A stretch of 64,000 nt of DNA from Methanohalophilus levihalophilus (GTDB lineage Archaea > Halobacteriota > Methanosarcinia > Methanosarcinales > Methanosarcinaceae), in the NCBI RefSeq assembly GCF_017874375.1, contig NZ_JAGGLK010000003.1:62001-126000 (forward strand). The letters run 5' to 3'. The notes below the pieces were generated by a model. The model saw only the letters and a list, made by a program, of their open reading frames with translations, searched no databases and was not told where the DNA came from. Positions 41,928-54,319 of the stretch are shown one piece after another. Made by a program: the position numbers and the translations under genes. How positions within the stretch are numbered: the stretch's first letter is position 1; the number at the start of each line of letters is the position of its first letter.

Positions 41928-42302
41928 TTATGCAGTTTCAATTTTAAGCAGTCCCGTAGGGTAGTGGTCAATCCTTTCGGCCTTTGGAGCCGAAGACGGT
42001 GGTTCGAATCCGCCCGGGACTATCTTATCTTTATCGTCTGTTGAGAGCGATTTTTCTAGATTTGAGAGTCTTTTTTCGATGTTATTCAGAACTTGCTCTA
42101 GTTGGGTTTCAGGAGAATAGTTTACACTTTTTTGATCAATAATTACCAGAAATGCCTGTTTTCCTTCATGCTCAGTAGGGTGAATTTCTGCTTTCTCACC
42201 AACGAGATGCAGGTATTCTTTCGGCAAGCGTAGAGTTGGATACGCCCTTGTTTTGCTTGCACTTAATTTTGTAATTTTAGTTGTAAATGGTTGTTCTGAC
42301 AT
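41928..42302 (-). CDS. int(N): N-terminal part of the partitioned integrase
   Basis: Residues 1-93 come from the element and the frame then runs through the att core as IVPGGFEPPSSAPKA into host tRNA sequence, ending by chance at 41928. The same frame in the same phase enters the catalytic half at the other end, so joining the ends of the element rebuilds one integrase of 381 aa. Residues about 5-58 look like an AbrB/MazE-type beta domain (TLRLPKEYLHLVGEKAEIHP), followed by a coiled-coil stretch (QLEQVLNNIEKRLSNLEKSL). In the integrated state this fragment cannot recombine, but might still bind DNA and regulate. Confidence 0.8.
   Translation of the reverse strand: MSEQPFTTKITKLSASKTRAYPTLRLPKEYLHLVGEKAEIHPTEHEGKQAFLVIIDQKSVNYSPETQLEQVLNNIEKRLSNLEKSLSTDDKDKIVPGGFEPPSSAPKAERIDHYPTGLLKIETA
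41950..42022 (+). tRNA. tRNA-Gln (anticodon TTG), integration site
   Basis: Acceptor AGTCCCG pairs with CGGGACT; D arm with GGGTAGTGGTCAATCC; anticodon stem TTCGGC/GCCGAA around CTTTGGA, so the anticodon is TTG; T arm CGGTGG-TTCGAAT-CCGCCC region. Its 3' part from 41980 on is identical to the repeat at 54276-54319, so the integrated element restores a whole tRNA gene at this end. Confidence 0.93.
41980..42023 (+). repeat. attL (44-bp direct repeat)
   Basis: Begins with GCCTTTGGAGCC and ends with CCGGGACTAT. It covers the anticodon loop to the 3' end of tRNA-Gln plus one base, and is identical to 54276-54319. The first differing bases are 41979 and 42024. Confidence 0.93.
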
Positions 42303-42522: not shown

Positions 42523-43104
42523 TTAATCAGAATCTTCTTGCGACATAGAATCAAAGTAAAGCTTTTCTACAAAAACTAGATCAACAAGCATGTTTTCGGA
42601 ATCCTCTGCAATCCATTCATAGAATTCTTCAGCGTTACATATGAATTCATATCCTGGAACCTGACCTGACCGAAGTAGTTCATCTATTTTTTTTAAGAAA
42701 TCTATAGTATCAGGATCTTTTTCGAAAATATATTGTATTTTGTCGTAAACGACATATATTGAAGTTATATGCTTTCTATAATTTTTTTCGAACACGTCTT
42801 TGACAAGCTCTGAGACCTTTTCATGAGATGAATCAATATCATTTTTCCTTACTCCATCTTTCATAGTTTTCATTGCAATTGCTATGATTATGTATTCATA
42901 TCGAGTATTTGTTCCAAAGAGAGTTTGTCGGTCTTTCCATACTTTTCTAGCAAGGATAAAGATATAATCAAGTTGACTTTTGTGTATCTCTAGTGCAGAT
43001 AAAAGAGATTCTGTAAACTCACGCACCTCTCTCTCAGTAGCAGTTTCATCTGCTGTGATGTAGCCATACTGTTTATCCAATCTCCGAATATTGTTCGCAC
43101 TCAT
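42523..43104 (-). CDS. Hypothetical protein of the element (193 aa)
   Basis: An acidic, mostly helical soluble protein (EREVREFTESLLSALEIHKS, VWKDRQTLFGTNTRYEYIII, then a tail rich in D and E). It is not recognised. It is divergent from the DUF927 gene. The 220 bp between it and int(N) holds TTAGGGGGGTAACACC but no gene I can support. Its place beside the replication gene might suit a regulator or partner; no DNA-binding motif is plain. Confidence 0.65.
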   Translation of the reverse strand: MSANNIRRLDKQYGYITADETATEREVREFTESLLSALEIHKSQLDYIFILARKVWKDRQTLFGTNTRYEYIIIAIAMKTMKDGVRKNDIDSSHEKVSELVKDVFEKNYRKHITSIYVVYDKIQYIFEKDPDTIDFLKKIDELLRSGQVPGYEFICNAEEFYEWIAEDSENMLVDLVFVEKLYFDSMSQEDSD

Positions 43105-43328: not shown

Positions 43329-45074
43329 ATGCCTACAGAAATTGACTTTCAAAATAGTCTCTTATATGAGACAGGAACAGTAAATGGAATAGAGTTTGAC
43401 ACAACCCCAGATGAGTTAAAAATCCGTAATGCCATTGAGCATGTAACATCTGCAAATTGCTGGCAGGGGATTGAACTTCCACCTGGGTATGAGATTACTA
43501 ATAACAAACTGTGCAAAATGAATGGAAAATATCCAATTTGCCGAAAGCCTATAGTATTATCTGCAATCGGAGAAAACATTGACAGCGGTGAGTTTTGGTA
43601 TAAAATTACTTTCATGGATCCTCTTGAAAGAATTCAGGAGATTTATGCAAAGCATGAGCAGATAATAAAGAAAAATGAATTGATGAAGATAACAAACCAG
43701 GGCATCCTTGTTGATGAAAAAAAGGGTGCAGAGTTGTGTGAATATTTAGCAGATTCAATTGATTATAATGCAACAAATTTGAAACACAACATGTTTGTCT
43801 CGAAAAATGGTTGGAAGAATAATAATGAAATTTTTGTGCTTGGAAATCAGTATTACTCCTCTGAACATATAGGTCCAGTTAGACATGTTAATGAAGAGTC
43901 AGTAAAAGGACTAACCAAGAAGGGTACCTTGAAAGATTGGGTGGCAGGTACTAGAGACATCATTGCCGAACCTATCATTCGGTTTAAGTGCTATTGTGCT
44001 GTGTCTTCAAATATTTTGAGACTATTGGACATGCCACCTTACATAGTGGATCACAATGGAAACACAAGTACTGGCAAGACTCTGAGTACTAAATTTGCTT
44101 TCAGCATGTATGGAAATCCAGAAGAACTCATGCTTTCCGGACAATCTACACCGACTTACTTAGAAGAGATGGCAAGTAACTATGATGATTTTGCTTTGTG
44201 CATTGATGAAACCAGTCTACAATCATCTGAAATCCTTACAACTATAATATACATGTTCGGCAACGGTTCTGGAAAAGGGCGTGGAAAAAAGGATGGCGGA
44301 GTGAGAAAAATGAAACGCTGGAAAAGTGTTGCATTCACGACTGGTGAAAAACCAATTGCTGACGCCGATGGTTTTGGTGGTCAACAGGTAAGAGTAGTTG
44401 AGATCCAGAGGGAGTTGCCAAAGTTGCCTGAAATTGTCAAAACTACCGAAGATACTCTTGCAGGAAACTATGGGCACGTAGGTGAGTTGTTTATCAGGAA
44501 AGTATTCGAGCACAAAGATGAACTTCGTTCAAGATTTGCATACTACAGAGACATGTTTACAAATAACGAATCATCTACAATGAATCGGGCTGGAACCTAC
44601 TTTGCAGCTATTGCAGTTGCAGGCGAGTTGCTGGAGGAAGTCTTTGATGAAATTGGAATTGAAGTTATAGATCATCTTGAGTTAGTGAAAGATTTCTTCA
44701 ACGAAACTGTGAAGGAGAAACCGATTGTACCATATCCAGTTAAAGCCCTCCGTGCCGTAAACGGTTGGTTTGAAGAGAATAGAGGCTATTTCGTTGTAAA
44801 TGATGATATGGACTCATACAAGCACGCTGTGAAGTATGGTTGGATTACACGAAATGGATATCTGGACATCATTACTTCCACTTTGAAAGATGCAATGAAA
44901 ATGCAAAACATAAATCTTGGAAGTGTTCTGGATTCTTGGGAAAAAGATGGCATCATTACTCTTAGTGCTGGAAGAAAGGATTTTCAGGCAAGGCATTCTG
45001 ATGGCAATGGTGGAAGCCCACGAATTGGTGTATATAGGTTTAACTTGGAGAAAATGAGGGAGTATCTGGAATAA
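43329..45074 (+). CDS. DUF927-type replication ATPase / helicase-like protein
   Basis: A 581-aa P-loop protein. Walker A is DHNGNTSTGKTLSTKF (about 239-254), Walker B is DFALCIDETSL (about 291-301), and a sensor-like KSVAFTTGEKPI follows. The C-terminus (about 480-581) looks like a winged-helix region. DUF927 proteins in plasmids, phages and archaeal elements are thought to act in replication. The iteron-like array right after its stop supports this. It is the largest gene of the element and the best candidate for its replication initiator or helicase. Confidence 0.82.
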   Translation: MPTEIDFQNSLLYETGTVNGIEFDTTPDELKIRNAIEHVTSANCWQGIELPPGYEITNNKLCKMNGKYPICRKPIVLSAIGENIDSGEFWYKITFMDPLERIQEIYAKHEQIIKKNELMKITNQGILVDEKKGAELCEYLADSIDYNATNLKHNMFVSKNGWKNNNEIFVLGNQYYSSEHIGPVRHVNEESVKGLTKKGTLKDWVAGTRDIIAEPIIRFKCYCAVSSNILRLLDMPPYIVDHNGNTSTGKTLSTKFAFSMYGNPEELMLSGQSTPTYLEEMASNYDDFALCIDETSLQSSEILTTIIYMFGNGSGKGRGKKDGGVRKMKRWKSVAFTTGEKPIADADGFGGQQVRVVEIQRELPKLPEIVKTTEDTLAGNYGHVGELFIRKVFEHKDELRSRFAYYRDMFTNNESSTMNRAGTYFAAIAVAGELLEEVFDEIGIEVIDHLELVKDFFNETVKEKPIVPYPVKALRAVNGWFEENRGYFVVNDDMDSYKHAVKYGWITRNGYLDIITSTLKDAMKMQNINLGSVLDSWEKDGIITLSAGRKDFQARHSDGNGGSPRIGVYRFNLEKMREYLE

Positions 45075-45081
45075 GCGGGTA

Positions 45082-45193
45082 TGTCACATTGTCACAACTG
45101 TCACAGGCTTTAGATATATAATAATAAATATGGACAATTATAATAAAATTAATTATATATATTAAATATGTGACACTTGTGACATTTGTGACA
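45082..45193. other. Putative replication origin: opposed iterons around an AT-rich core
   Basis: Three TGTCACA copies begin at 45082, 45090 and 45099, and three TGTGACA copies (the reverse complement) at 45169, 45178 and 45187. Between them lies a 63-bp stretch almost all A and T. It follows the DUF927 ATPase stop by 7 bp. Opposed short repeats around an AT-rich unwinding region are typical of plasmid and archaeal origins. They could instead be operator sites for the gene at 45300. Confidence 0.6.
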
Positions 45194-45299: not shown

Positions 45300-45647
45300 A
45301 TGATAAATCAAAACGTTAAAAAGTGTATCGATAATTGGACAAAAGAGGGCAAATGCCCTGTATACGAAGGCTGGCCAAAGAACCTTTTTAGGCAAGCTGG
45401 TAAAGAAGGAACTGCAAAAATCACTCAATTCATTAAAAAGCGATTTTATGCAACTGCAGATTTCATTGAATATTATTTCTGCATGCCCTATCTGAAATGC
45501 GAAATTGAACCAGACTTGCTATATGTTCATTGGAATGATTCGCCGAACAAGAAGGGAAGGATGGAAAAAAGAGATTCAAATAATCAACTGGATTTCTTTT
45601 TTCAAAATGGCCTGATATCAAGTTCTTTAGTAGCCAGTTCGATTTGA
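45300..45647 (+). CDS. Hypothetical protein of the element (115 aa)
   Basis: A basic protein (VKKCIDNWTKEGKCPVYEGW, AGKEGTAKITQFIKKRF). No motif was recognised. I start at ATG 45300, 6 nt after GGTG; TTG 45288 and GTG 45291 are also in frame. A strong terminator hairpin follows 13 nt after its stop. It lies just after the origin-like array, so a replication accessory role is possible but unproven. Confidence 0.6.
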   Translation: MINQNVKKCIDNWTKEGKCPVYEGWPKNLFRQAGKEGTAKITQFIKKRFYATADFIEYYFCMPYLKCEIEPDLLYVHWNDSPNKKGRMEKRDSNNQLDFFFQNGLISSSLVASSI

Positions 45648-45876: not shown

Positions 45877-46773
45877 TCAGCCTTCATCGATAGAAGTGTC
45901 AGAATATAATTTGTCACCCGTATTGTTCCACAACTCATGGAACTCTCTAAGTTCATGTATTACCTGCAAATGAACTTCAAATAAACTAGGTAGCTTTCTA
46001 ACCAGAGGAGATTTCCAAGTAAAAATTTCCAGAGGACTTTTTCCTTTTTCCGGATATCTTGCAATATTAGCAAGAGGCAGAGTTATTACTGCTAAATAAA
46101 AAAGAGGTATGGTTAAGAGTGCATTTTTATAATTAATTATGTAGTAATTTTTTAGTGCATCCCATGCATCATCAAAGTTTATATTTTCAGCTTCTTCCTT
46201 GAACTTAAGAACAGCCTCTTGAGGGAAGTTATTTTTCTCCACCCACTCCACAATTTGATTGACATTTTGTGACCATTCGTTTTTATCAATATTCAATTTA
46301 AGAAATGTGTCCATTTCTTCAGTAATCTGATTTTTTTCATCTTGTATTTCCTTTAATAACTGATTGATGGCTGTTGCTTTTATGAAAATCAGATCATCGC
46401 TTTGCTCTTTTATTTCGTCAATAGTCTGAATAGCAAGATTAGATTGCTGAACAATGTTTTTAATCTCTTCTTTTTGAAAAAATGGTAGATCTTTATATAT
46501 TGGATGCTTTTCAGATTGCTTTAGAAACTTGCCGAATTTTTGTTGAGCTCTACGACTGCTTTTCTGATGAATAATGATTGCTTCATGCCCGATTTTATCA
46601 GAAAGGTATTTTTCATTGTGATTGTTAAGTAACGTAGCAAGTGATTTATTCGCTTTTTCCACACTCTGAGCAAAATAAAAAGCCGCTTGAGGATATAATT
46701 TGTTTTTGTGAAGAATTCTGGAAGCTTCTAGATCCCGTTCTGCAATTTCCAACAACTCTTCGGCTAAGTTCAT
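45877..46773 (-). CDS. HEPN-domain protein next to restriction remnant
   Basis: A 298-aa protein. The N-terminus (about 1-130) resembles HEPN helical bundles (AEELLEIAERDLEASRILH, LYPQAAFYFAQSVEKANKSL). A classic RxxxxH RNase motif is not plain. The C-terminus has one hydrophobic segment (NALLTIPLFYLAVITLPLAN, about 218-237) and may be membrane-associated. It begins 20 nt after the truncated hsdS. HEPN proteins are often toxins or defence RNases; whether this one is active is unknown. Confidence 0.65.
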   Translation of the reverse strand: MNLAEELLEIAERDLEASRILHKNKLYPQAAFYFAQSVEKANKSLATLLNNHNEKYLSDKIGHEAIIIHQKSSRRAQQKFGKFLKQSEKHPIYKDLPFFQKEEIKNIVQQSNLAIQTIDEIKEQSDDLIFIKATAINQLLKEIQDEKNQITEEMDTFLKLNIDKNEWSQNVNQIVEWVEKNNFPQEAVLKFKEEAENINFDDAWDALKNYYIINYKNALLTIPLFYLAVITLPLANIARYPEKGKSPLEIFTWKSPLVRKLPSLFEVHLQVIHELREFHELWNNTGDKLYSDTSIDEG

Positions 46774-46793: not shown

Positions 46794-48176
46794 TTAAGCT
46801 GTAAGAAGGTGATTCACAGCCGCTTCCATCAGTGTTTCATTGTCTGACTGTGCTTGCTTAATCTTTGCTTCAAGCTGGTCGCATAGTATCATAAGTTGAT
46901 CGACTTTAGCTACGATGCGTTTTTGTTCTTCTAGAGGTGGAAGTGGAATAATTGCATTTTTTATAATCCCTACATTGAGATTTGGTTGAGCTCCTCCAGC
47001 AGCTAAACTTCGTAACTCAGCATATTGTTTTGTTAAAACAAGCTTTACGTAGCTTTTGCTGATCTCAAGAGAATCGATAAAAACTAACGCAGCACATGCT
47101 TGATTAATAGTAGCTTCTATTTGAATTTCTGCAACCTGTCCTCGCGTTTTTCCTTGTCCATATAGTGCAATTATTAAGGTTCCAGGAGGATAAAGTCTTA
47201 AACGACATTCTTCTACTGCTTTTTGTGTTATATGTGTTTCAGCATTATCAACAAACTCAAGTGAAGTAGCCGAACTAGTTATCCATGGAATTGTGCCATT
47301 TTCATAATATTCTGCCTGAGTCTTCAAGGGGGTGCTTCCCGTTCCGACATCGCACAAATCTATTAGTCGAACCCATTTCCACTTATCAGAAATTTCATAA
47401 GGAGTTTTGGACTCGTCTATTTCAAGAGATTTGCTGGTTTTCTTAATCTTCCCTCCTTTCATCAACCTATCCTTTTCAGCCTTAATTCTCTCCAAGAGAA
47501 CTTCCGCTGGCTCATCACTAGCATCCTGCTCCACAAGCTTCCCTTGCACTGCAAGCTGCAATATTGTTTGTCTGAGCTTCTTTAAATTATCCAGATCTTC
47601 ATAGAGCAAATCGAAGTTCCCATAAACAAACTGCCAGTGCTCTGCGAATTCTTCTGGACTGGCGGCAGCGAGCATCTTGCTAAGTGCTGAATTGTTCAAA
47701 TGGTTGCGGTTTTCGTTCTTCTTTTGTTGGAGTGATTCAAGCTGATCACATACTGCCATAAGTTGATCAACTTTAGCTACGATGCGTTTTTGCTCTTCAA
47801 AGGGAGGAAGAGGAAAAGCGATATTTTTTACGATACCGGTGTTTAAATTTAATTGTGCACCACCAAAGGCTCTTTTTTTGAGCTCTCCTTGGAAATATAA
47901 AAAGAAATAATACAAATACTTAATAGAGATTTGATTTTTATTTAAATAAGGAAAAGCTAAATAGCCATCATGGATACAACCATTTATTCCTAATATAGTT
48001 GGAACCCCTATGGTTGCGCTATTAGAAAGAACAAAAGTTCCTTTTTCAAGGTAAACACTCTTTTTTGCCCCTTCTTTAGTTAGAAATTCATCGGTGTCTT
48101 TCAATACCCACCCATCAGCATATTTCCTTATATCCGAAATTTTAATCCAATGAAAAGGTGTTCTTCTTTGCTTCAA
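46794..48176 (-). pseudogene. Truncated type I restriction specificity subunit (hsdS remnant)
   Basis: The open frame (460 aa) shows two conserved regions PLPPFEEQKRIVAKVDQLM and PLPPLEEQKRIVAKVDQLM, each after a target-recognition domain. The first recognition domain lacks about its first 60 residues: the frame starts at TTG in TPFHWIKISDIRKYADG. This start overlaps the hsdR fragment, so a deletion has joined the 5' part of hsdR to the inside of hsdS, and hsdM is gone. The second domain (about 265-440) is whole. A protein may still be made, but no complete enzyme can form from this locus. Confidence 0.8.
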
Positions 48177-48438
48177 TTACAGCAATTGGAATATTTGGTT
48201 TGTAGTACAGGATATAATCAGCACGCTTATTTTTACCACGAGAGACTGTTTGGCCGCTAACAATTACTCTTCCATCGGTAAGTTGAACCTCTTCACGTAC
48301 TTGCGTTTGAAGATTCCATCCTGCTTTATCGATAGCTGGGGTAATGAATTTAGTACAAACGTCCCTTTCACTAAGATCATATTTGTTTATTTCATCCATA
48401 TTCCAGCTTTCCATTAATTGTGTCAGAATAATACTCAA
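48142..48438 (-). pseudogene. N-terminal fragment of type I restriction subunit R (hsdR remnant)
   Basis: Of 98 residues, about 80 match the HsdR N-terminal nuclease domain: SERDVCTKFITPAIDKAGWN, VIVSGQTVSRGKNKRADYIL and IAVIEAKK, the last with the catalytic Glu and Lys. It stops right after this motif; the motor domains are missing. The last codons overlap the start of the hsdS remnant, marking the deletion joint at about 48145-48180. Confidence 0.82.
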
Positions 48439-49211: not shown

Positions 49212-49811
49212 TCATGGGTTGAAAGTTTGAAGGGTTTCCACTAATTCGAAAACTAATGTAGAAGGGTTACTATTCCTGCTAATTATTTCCATACCATTCG
49301 AGTAATGCATATCATTAATTTGCTTTGAATTCTTTACTGCAATACCGATTTTTTGCTTTGTTTTCGTATAAAGTTCAGGATCCGTTTTCTTGTATCCTCC
49401 AAGATGGGTATCTAATTTACTTTTAAGAGCACCATGCTCAATTTGCTTCATGTAACATTCAAAATGTGAAAGTATCCAAAATTCAAAACAAGGATTTGAA
49501 AATATTAAGTTTATATCATTCAATTCTGACATTTTTTTCGCGTCTAAAAGTGATTGATCTGAATTTGCATCTCGATCAAATACACAGAAAATTAAATCGC
49601 CTTCTAGAAAGTCTCGGGTATGCTTTTTAAAATTTAGAATATGCTTTATAATGCCTACAGGATCTTTGTTATTGGAAGAATTTACTTTGATTTTCAATGA
49701 TCTCAATCTTAGATCTACCTTCAATTTATCGAAATAGTATTTTTCTGTTTTTGCTCCTTCGCAGAATATCCAAACTGTTTTTATGGATTTTTTCCCTTCA
49801 CCCCTGACCAT
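49212..49811 (-). CDS. RloB-like protein (AbiLii type)
   Basis: A 199-aa protein of the RloB family: VWIFCEGAKTEKYYFDKL at the N-terminus (a Toprim-like start with Glu), LIFCVFDRDAN in the middle (Asp pair) and SNPCFEFWILSHFE (about 102-115). RloB is seen as a Toprim-like nuclease partner of an RloA ATPase in phage-defence loci. It starts 22 nt after the ATPase stop, with GAGGGGG upstream. Confidence 0.8.
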   Translation of the reverse strand: MVRGEGKKSIKTVWIFCEGAKTEKYYFDKLKVDLRLRSLKIKVNSSNNKDPVGIIKHILNFKKHTRDFLEGDLIFCVFDRDANSDQSLLDAKKMSELNDINLIFSNPCFEFWILSHFECYMKQIEHGALKSKLDTHLGGYKKTDPELYTKTKQKIGIAVKNSKQINDMHYSNGMEIISRNSNPSTLVFELVETLQTFNP

Positions 49812-49833
49812 TTATGGTACCCCCTCAAAATAT

Positions 49834-51081
49834 TTAATCAAACAAAGTCTCATCAATAAGAGGGACTCCACCAAACCTTCCATTGAGATATGCTCTTTCA
49901 AAGTCTATCTCTTGCCGAATGTCATAATCCAAAAGTGAACTTAATTCTGTGGAACTATTTTGCTCTTTTGAGAAGAGATACACTTGATCCCTTCTGAAAA
50001 CCTCATTGTCAAGAAGCGTCGTATCATGTGTTGTAAAGATAACTTGTGCATCTTTGTTCTTTTTACTGTTAAACATCCTTACAAGTAGTCTTGTAATTTC
50101 AGGATGGAGACTTTGCTCAAGCTCGTCTATGAATGCAATGTTGCCTTTCTCAATTATATCAAACAATGGGCCCAAAATTAAAAAAGTTTTCTTTGTACCC
50201 ATGGATTCATCGTTCAAATCAAAATAAACAATTTTTCCATCCTCATTTTTGTGCATTGTCTGTACACTAAACACATCATCAGTACCATCTTTACTTTCAA
50301 ATGAAGAGTTCTCGTGTGAAAAATTAAAAGTAAATTCTTTTACTGGAATCTTTTTCTTCTTGATCCGAATATTTTCAATGCCCCCAAAATCGGCTTTTTT
50401 CAGCACATCGAGTATCTTCTTCTTAAAGTCACTATTTTCATAGGCTTTATTAATTGTATATCCTTCCCAACTCGGATTAATATTTACAAGATCAATATTT
50501 ACAATTATTTTTTTAGAGAAAAAATCGTATGCATCCTTTGTTTTATCATAGCCCAACTGCGTTGCTCGTGAAAGGTAGAGAGTATTATCAATAGTCTGCG
50601 ATTTCAACAAGTTCTGTTGTTCTTCATCAATTGGAAAAACGAATTTTTTCGTTTTTTCTCTTGTAAAGATTGGTTTTGGGTTTTGCTTTGAAATGTCATA
50701 CAAATACTCACTAACAATCTTCTTTGATGTGCATGAAAAACCATATTTGTAGGTTTTATTATTTTGGATGAATTTGATCTCAAAGTTACTAGGCTTTTTT
50801 TTGCATTCTTCGCTCAACTTAAATGGAGATACGGGAATATTTGAGTTTATATTAAAATTGTGAGAGTTTAGCACTAGGCCCTGCATGAAATACATTGCTT
50901 TTATAAAATTAGATTTTCCAGAAGAGTTCGCTCCATAAATGACAGCTGATTTGAGAAGTTTTTCTTTTTTATTTAATTCAATAAGATTCTGTGGTATTTT
51001 TTTACTTGAGCTTGAATCCATACTCAAGGTAACTTTTTCTTTGAATGAAAGAAAATTCTCAACAGAAAATTCTATTAACAT
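49834..51081 (-). CDS. RloA-like AAA ATPase (AbiLi type)
   Basis: A 415-aa SMC/OLD-like ATPase: FSVENFLSFKEKVTLSMD at the start, Walker A YGANSSGKSNFIKAM (about 49-63), and ABC-type Walker B IAFIDELEQSLHPEI (about 322-336) followed by QVIFTTHDTTLLD. With rloB it forms the two-gene arrangement of abortive-infection AbiL systems. The start is ATG at 51081. Confidence 0.83.
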   Translation of the reverse strand: MLIEFSVENFLSFKEKVTLSMDSSSSKKIPQNLIELNKKEKLLKSAVIYGANSSGKSNFIKAMYFMQGLVLNSHNFNINSNIPVSPFKLSEECKKKPSNFEIKFIQNNKTYKYGFSCTSKKIVSEYLYDISKQNPKPIFTREKTKKFVFPIDEEQQNLLKSQTIDNTLYLSRATQLGYDKTKDAYDFFSKKIIVNIDLVNINPSWEGYTINKAYENSDFKKKILDVLKKADFGGIENIRIKKKKIPVKEFTFNFSHENSSFESKDGTDDVFSVQTMHKNEDGKIVYFDLNDESMGTKKTFLILGPLFDIIEKGNIAFIDELEQSLHPEITRLLVRMFNSKKNKDAQVIFTTHDTTLLDNEVFRRDQVYLFSKEQNSSTELSSLLDYDIRQEIDFERAYLNGRFGGVPLIDETLFD

Positions 51082-53452: not shown

Positions 53453-54319
53453 TTAATCTCCAAAAGCGGAATCAATATATGGCACCACTTTACCATAATT
53501 GAGAATGCAGTTATTGAGCTTGTCTAAATAGTTAGTCATCAAAACTGAACCATTAGAATGTCCAACCATGTATTTTATGAAAGATTCTTGAATTCCAGCT
53601 TTAACACACTTGTCTATGAAAAAGTTGCGACCATATTTCAATCCCAGTCCACGCCTTCTGAAGTAAATTCGTGATGCTTCAATGTCAATATACATTTTGT
53701 AGAGTTGCCTGGCAAAAGCTTCAGGCATGAATGCTTTAAACGCTTTTTTCTGACCACGTTCCCAATCGATGTCATAATACGCTATGCCATTTTCATAATG
53801 CATCTTCTTAGGATCAAACTCGGTAAGAACTTTAACCGCTTCTACAATGCGTATTCCGCTGTAATAGACAAGTTGTATCAGGTATTGCATCTCCTCATCT
53901 GTAGTTCTCTGAAAAACATTACAAACGAGTTCATCACTGGGAACATAAGTATCAGTGCCACATTTTCTGATCTTTAATGTATTTTTTAACTCTGCTGCAA
54001 AGTAGGCTGATATCATACGCTTTTCAACGTAATAATTGATCAAGTTGCGGACTGCTTTGGCATACCAATTCCAACCTTTATCAACACCCATTGAAACATC
54101 GAGTAGTGAATCAATATCCGATATCTCTGTACCTCTCAAATGCTGATCTAAGTACTTGACATAGCACTTTGCGGTACCTTCACTCACCCTCCCATGAATC
54201 CATCGTGTAAACTTTTCTCTCTCAAAAGTGTAATTTAGTACATTTAAAGTGGCTTCTGCACTTGAAAATGCTCTTGCCTTTGGAGCCGAAGACGGTGGTT
54301 CGAATCCGCCCGGGACTAT
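53453..54319 (-). CDS. int(C): catalytic part of the partitioned tyrosine integrase
   Basis: From the att core inward this frame encodes 288 residues: a SAM-like core-binding part (about FTRWIHGRVSEGTAKCYVKY) and the tyrosine recombinase domain with YYSGIRIVEAVKVL (first Arg), KYGRNFFIDKC (second Arg box), VGHSNGSVLMTNYLDK (His and the nucleophile Tyr). There is no ATG between the core and the conserved region; the open frame reaches ATG 54391 only by reading 24 codons into host DNA. Joined to int(N) the protein has 381 aa. In the integrated state it lacks its own start, which is the normal SSV-type outcome. Confidence 0.85.
   Translation of the reverse strand: MVPGGFEPPSSAPKARAFSSAEATLNVLNYTFEREKFTRWIHGRVSEGTAKCYVKYLDQHLRGTEISDIDSLLDVSMGVDKGWNWYAKAVRNLINYYVEKRMISAYFAAELKNTLKIRKCGTDTYVPSDELVCNVFQRTTDEEMQYLIQLVYYSGIRIVEAVKVLTEFDPKKMHYENGIAYYDIDWERGQKKAFKAFMPEAFARQLYKMYIDIEASRIYFRRRGLGLKYGRNFFIDKCVKAGIQESFIKYMVGHSNGSVLMTNYLDKLNNCILNYGKVVPYIDSAFGD
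54276..54319 (+). repeat. attR (44-bp direct repeat)
   Basis: Identical to 41980-42023. To its right the host sequence resumes with TTGCTTTTTTGC, a T-rich run that was probably the original tRNA-Gln terminator. Confidence 0.93.

Follow-up and report, generated by a model that had tools for sequence, protein, structure and literature searches.

Opposed iterons behind a DUF927 helicase gene are a candidate replication origin of an archaeal integrative element

Positions 45082-45193 of the window (the whole stretch of 64,000 nucleotides analysed, part of the 2.1-Mb genome of Methanohalophilus levihalophilus) very probably form the origin from which a 12.3-kb archaeal integrative element replicates, with the DUF927 protein encoded next to them as initiator and helicase. 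The original prediction took the repeat array at this place for a good origin, and this is the best-supported reading, as arrays recur behind DUF927 genes and the protein is homologous to a Rep helicase that binds its origin. The features concerned are the following.

41950-42022, plus strand: tRNA-Gln (TTG), the integration target
41980-42023, no strand: attL, a 44-bp repeat made up of the tRNA-Gln 3' end and one further base
42000-42302, minus strand: N-terminal part of the split integrase (the ORF continues to 41928)
42523-43104, minus strand: 193-aa ORF 5' of the DUF927 gene, without a match in Pfam or PADLOC and without relatives in the loci compared
43329-45074, plus strand: DUF927 protein (581 aa; PF06048, E 4.1e-52), predicted to be a Rep-type initiator and self-loading helicase
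44826-45071, plus strand: C-terminal winged-helix region, residues ~500-581, predicted iteron-binding domain (helix and strand order in the AlphaFold2 model, Pfam matches in relatives)
45082-45105, plus strand: left iteron triplet, TGTCACA three times (starts 45082, 45090 and 45099; steps of 8 and 9 bp)
45106-45168, no strand: AT-rich core of 63 bp, 89% A+T, predicted unwinding element
45169-45193, minus strand: right iteron triplet, inverted, TGTGACA three times (starts 45169, 45178 and 45187; steps of 9 and 9 bp)
45300-45647, plus strand: 115-aa ORF 3' of the array, with no relative in the compared loci
53453-54319, minus strand: the other fragment of the split integrase, C-terminal and catalytic, matching PF16795 (archaeal phage integrase, E 2.2e-31)
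54276-54319, no strand: attR, identical to the 44-bp repeat of attL

The array had been described as opposed triplets with steps of 8-9 bp around a 63-bp AT-rich core, beginning 7 bp past the DUF927 stop. All of this is exact: the gene ends with TAA at 45072-45074, and the array lies where it had been placed. The word TGTCACA by itself is not rare, with 14 matches in the window against 8.7 expected, and 7 of 100 shuffled windows reach 14. An opposed array of three plus three exact 7-mers occurs once in the real window and in none of 60 dinucleotide-shuffled windows. When searching 184 genomes of the order for a TGTCACA triplet with spacers of 1-3 bp, we found it only in this genome, once per strand. 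The core has a nearest-neighbour stability of -58.2 kcal/mol over its 63 bp; a lower stability is shown by only 0.04% of the element's 63-mers and 0.008% of those in the window, and the core overlaps the element's least stable 63-mer, which starts at 45108. GC skew gave no usable origin signal (cumulative minimum at 54223, maximum at 46157).

The element measures 12,296 bp with a GC content of 34.8%, compared with 43.3% in its surroundings, and is bounded by the perfect 44-bp repeat. Joining its ends in silico across attP yielded an in-frame integrase of 381 aa. We classify it as an SSV-type integrative element, with an integrase gene split at the tRNA and predicted to be restored on the circle. 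With intact att sites and a restorable integrase, a circular stage is to be expected. Genomes of the same genus offered no clean empty site; the left flank and the tRNA match there, and the right flank is not at the same place.

A replication-type ATPase had been proposed to lie beside the array, and both sequence and predicted fold bear this out by relating the 581-aa protein to SaPIbov1 Rep. Its only strong sequence relatives in the PDB are 8tch_A (SaPIbov1 Rep, E 1.5e-37, residues 81-551), which the PDB entry text calls an initiation-of-replication protein with helicase activity, and 5dgk_A (SCCmec Cch, E 1.9e-18); a 26-sequence profile reached E-values of 1.8e-66 to 8tch and 8e-53 to 5dgk. 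The AlphaFold2 model (mean pLDDT 86) has the same two entries as best PDB folds (E 8e-29 to 1e-25), followed far behind by MCM helicases. In the model, the helices and beta wing of residues ~469-581 follow one another as in a winged helix. This region of the window protein has no Pfam match (E 0.01), and the C-termini of four of eight relatives scanned match PF18662, the 'Cch helix turn helix domain'. The iteron binder is likely the 581-aa protein and not the 193-aa protein, because the latter has neither a Pfam or PADLOC family nor a relative in the compared loci. The window protein lacks the N-terminal NrS-1-like polymerase-associated domain or DnaG-like part found in several of its relatives. 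Named relatives come from Methanococcoides, Methanolobus, Methanosarcina and Methanosalsum, which places the host in the Methanosarcinaceae; a scan of genome contigs with the single protein returned none, nor did scans of viral contigs with the protein or its alignment.

The search for the same array in related DUF927 elements had been set beforehand as the test on which the origin reading could fail. The reading passed this test: the architecture recurs directly downstream of the gene in archaea and bacteria, and the word changes. An exact-repeat detector, applied to 26 DUF927 loci of the order plus the window, found 17 arrays in 14 of the 27 loci, all downstream of DUF927 and none upstream, while 270 shuffled loci gave three. 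Words in these loci include TGTCACA, TTACCA, TACCAC, ATAACC, GGTAT, GCCGGA, TTACGG, GTGGA and GTACCA. We then scored at least five opposed copies within 600 bp, allowing one mismatch, in a set of 36 loci comprising 27 from Methanosarcinales (the window and L055-L080), 8 bacterial records of 30 found and the hydrothermarchaeal locus L098. This set did not include L081, whose gene is split at a contig end, the weak matches L082-L084, or L099. Such arrays lie downstream in 20 loci (13 with at least six copies), upstream in one, and in 0.58% of shuffles. As a control, the 600 bp behind other ORFs of at least 200 aa in the archaeal loci and the window reached five copies in 2 of 185 cases and six in none. 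Shuffles and control genes together rule out a chance origin of the array.

The same score applied to Pseudomonadota (28 loci, L115-L142, from 41 places; places without a locus, L143 and L113 were excluded) gave arrays downstream in 12 of 28, upstream in 1 of the 23 with enough upstream DNA (5 of the 28 had too little), and in 10 of 1400 shuffles; these arrays often have three copies per side, ~9 bp apart. The score stayed below five copies in the other 16 of the 36 loci and in 16 of the 28 from Pseudomonadota. These misses include L056 and L061, where arrays are visible by eye and the automatic test counts none. Nothing or weak scores were obtained for L063, L068, L074, L076, L078, L080, L089, L091, L092 and L098, and in L064, L067, L073 and L079 the arrays lie 0.7-2.2 kb downstream. 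At L064 and L073, both from Methanosarcina, the DUF927 gene is followed by one that by eye begins like a 3'-5' exonuclease/polymerase, and the array lies ~1.8-2.2 kb downstream; the origin may there follow the whole operon and not the helicase gene itself. At L077 the DUF927 frame is open only as a C-terminal stretch of 208 aa and the triplet arrays behind it are intact, possibly a broken initiator with a preserved origin. Downstream of DUF927, locus L098 has GTCCCCATTTC direct repeats and CACAGCTGTG palindromes, not an opposed array.

The nearest relative, from M. vulcani (57-59% identity), shares word and layout with the window, close behind its stop; by eye there are three opposed copies on each side, those on the left with altered letters, and the detector scored two plus three. 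Methanolobus vulcani has TGTCAC variants three plus three, genome G013 carries TTCACAA three plus three, and Methanosarcina sp. KYL-1, with a helicase core 56% identical, has by eye a two plus two GTACCA array instead. Among bacteria, TGTCACA occurs five times on a circular 13-kb Geobacillus plasmid with DUF927, from the second base past the stop, with inverted copies beyond. The record of this plasmid (L085, CP128451.1, 13,067 bp) contains DUF927 twice, at a distance of 6.4 kb and with equal scores, and may be an assembly dimer. Behind rep in the S. aureus record PT1028, which we take to be SaPI-like, lie AGTTCCC/GGGAACT arrays, and the phages THSA-485A, Jekyll and phiRg507T2_3 have arrays of the GTAAC type. 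The other genes of the window element are not generally common to the DUF927 elements compared, which leaves array and DUF927 as the common module.

Comparing iteron and Rep similarity across 16 archaeal loci, with iteron words partly called by hand and the gene fragment L077 excluded, gave rho 0.41 for the helicase core (p 0.005) and 0.36 for the winged helix (p 0.007); the correlation was not significant once six bacterial loci were added. Covariation specific to the winged helix was looked for and not found.

The arrangement resembles that of the staphylococcal SaPIs. Their origins have iterons directly downstream of rep that are recognised by the C-terminal domain of Rep (PMC7581432), and the repeats in opposite orientations direct two head-to-head hexamers (PMC9894130). 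Like SaPIbov1, the window has a Rep helicase of the self-loading type, with homology to the SaPIbov1 protein along most of its sequence, and directly downstream of its gene an origin candidate with two opposed iteron sets; recognition by the C-terminal domain, known for SaPI Rep (PMC7581432), is predicted for the window protein. Unlike SaPIbov1, the window element has an archaeal host, another word, a compact three plus three array with a 63-bp core, and an SSV-type integrase. As far as sequence tells, array and DUF927 gene together are an archaeal member of the SaPI Rep/ori kind. We do not file the element itself as a staphylococcal pathogenicity island (SaPI/PICI); no genes for helper-phage induction or packaging interference were named among the element proteins scanned.

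SCCmec Cch (5dgk) is, like the window protein, a DUF927 helicase. DUF927 is part of Cch, which is a relative of SaPIbov1 Rep (PMC7581432), DUF927 has been predicted to be a helicase of mobile elements (PMC5862659), and DUF927 helicases similar to Cch and SaPIbov1 Rep have been described (PMC10061031). SCCmec is a different mobile element from that in the window. Cch2 belongs to another ATPase family, and its origin is a single set of three direct repeats, AAGTG iterons that it binds in the intergenic region behind its gene (PMC7581432). A Cch homologue is also encoded in the thaumarchaeal integrated element NitAR2-E2 (PMC6563490), likewise an archaeal integrated element with a Cch-like helicase; that element belongs to a different archaeal phylum, and the accessible part of its description contains no origin. 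The original prediction considered the origin and initiator of such elements to be poorly described. For archaea this agrees with searches of open-licence literature on DUF927/Cch and on archaeal integrative elements, which turned up, by title or opening, no description of an archaeal origin of this type; it does not stand for the design, which is known from SaPI origins (PMC7581432, PMC9894130).

A mechanism can be proposed from these parts. Excision would rejoin the integrase gene on the circle, and the C-terminal winged helix of Rep would bind the iterons. One hexamer could be seeded per triplet, so that the opposed sets would orient two rings towards each other across the core. Movement driven by ATP would then melt the AT-rich core, after which the helicases would unwind outward in both directions. 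Lacking the N-terminal primase-polymerase part of its close relatives, this short Rep would recruit primase and polymerase from the host. As a speculation, the mean step of 8.75 bp would turn each site by ~60 degrees relative to the previous one, the angle between neighbours in a hexamer; the ~11-bp step of other elements misfits this angle. Archaeal chromosomal origins also have opposed initiator (ORB) sites around AT-rich DNA, an arrangement that the array resembles. ORB sites are longer than these iterons and are bound by Orc1/Cdc6, whereas the predicted initiator in the window is the helicase itself, and a family scan of the element proteins named no Orc1/Cdc6 gene.

We considered whether the array could instead be an operator, with Rep or another regulator on the triplets controlling DUF927 or the downstream 115-aa gene. 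Iteron autoregulation is common in plasmids, the array occupies the gap ahead of the 115-aa ORF, and it is AT-rich, as archaeal promoters are. However, arrays stay behind DUF927 whatever the next ORF is and whether it lies on the same or the opposite strand, the neighbouring genes are not common to the loci, and upstream of DUF927 only one of the 36 loci has such an array. We therefore regard an operator as unlikely.

Still less probable are two other roles. The inverted arms might act as RNA, folding into a long hairpin where the DUF927 transcript ends (a terminator, a stability element or an antisense target); the single strand folds as RNA with -39.1 kcal/mol (z -5.9), and no shuffle folded as well. 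Yet any opposed array tends to fold well, and a hairpin needs neither direct repeats within its arms nor one step length. In relatives the copy numbers of the two sides are often unequal (4+2, 5+4, 2+4), in the window the spacers are unmatched between the arms (T/AC versus AA/AG), and no T run follows the array as in an intrinsic terminator, all of which makes this role very improbable. An equally small chance is given to a partition (parS-like), excisionase or recombination site. Such sites on mobile elements are also short opposed repeat arrays, and one TGTCACA triplet in a viral contig (L146) lies near a ParB-like gene; family scans of the window element, however, named no ParA/ParB-like gene, the att sites and integrase are 3-9 kb off, and the recurring neighbour of the arrays is a replicative helicase gene.

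We also asked which genes accompany TGTCACA triplets in viral contigs. A search of IMG/VR returned at least 120 stretches with the triplet, 12 with the reversed pattern and 6 with the third copy inverted. Eighty of the loci (L146-L225) were listed in detail and contain 88 triplets, 37 of them with a convergent ORF of at least 200 aa nearby. Among these listed loci there are 31 distinct nearest convergent ORFs (30 inspected singly, that of L218 through the totals), of which 21 match VapE, DUF5906/D5, DUF3987 or AAA_25 ATPases and none matches DUF927. A control of 31 random ORFs from these loci gave 25 listed Pfam families, and VapE, DUF5906/D5, DUF3987 and AAA_25 are not among them; 20 further one-member families lie beyond that list. 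Hence, TGTCACA is not confined to DUF927, and the triplet format may be a general trait of replicons with a helicase. We tentatively propose, as a possibility somewhat short of even, that mobile elements of bacteria and archaea share a general origin format, opposed iterons behind a helicase gene, which is driven by several ATPase engines (DUF927, VapE, D5/DUF5906, DUF3987, AAA_25), while the C-terminal winged-helix reading head and its word evolve or are exchanged apart from the engine. If so, TGTCACA would serve unrelated helicases, close DUF927 relatives would differ in word, and the origins would follow a recognition code readable from sequence.

For the archaeal element, a candidate initiator and a candidate origin can now both be named, and together they make up a candidate replicon of ~1.9 kb for methanosarcinal archaea, where vectors are few. 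The 'domain of unknown function 927' acquires a prediction that can be checked for each member, namely opposed iterons just behind the gene. With it, origins, incompatibility groups and host ranges could be predicted for many mobile elements. The natural pairs of Rep and word offer material for studying DNA reading by winged helices and origin opening by two self-loaded hexamers.

The element also carries genes of other kinds. RloB-like and AAA_21 genes at 49212-51081 match AbiLii and AbiLi in PADLOC, an abortive-infection pair. At 46794-48438, an orphan type I HsdS of 460 aa lies beside a 98-aa ORF whose match is limited to the N-terminus of a type I restriction enzyme (HsdR), likely the remnant of a restriction system. 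A 298-aa HEPN-domain protein, present in no PADLOC model, is encoded at 45877-46773.
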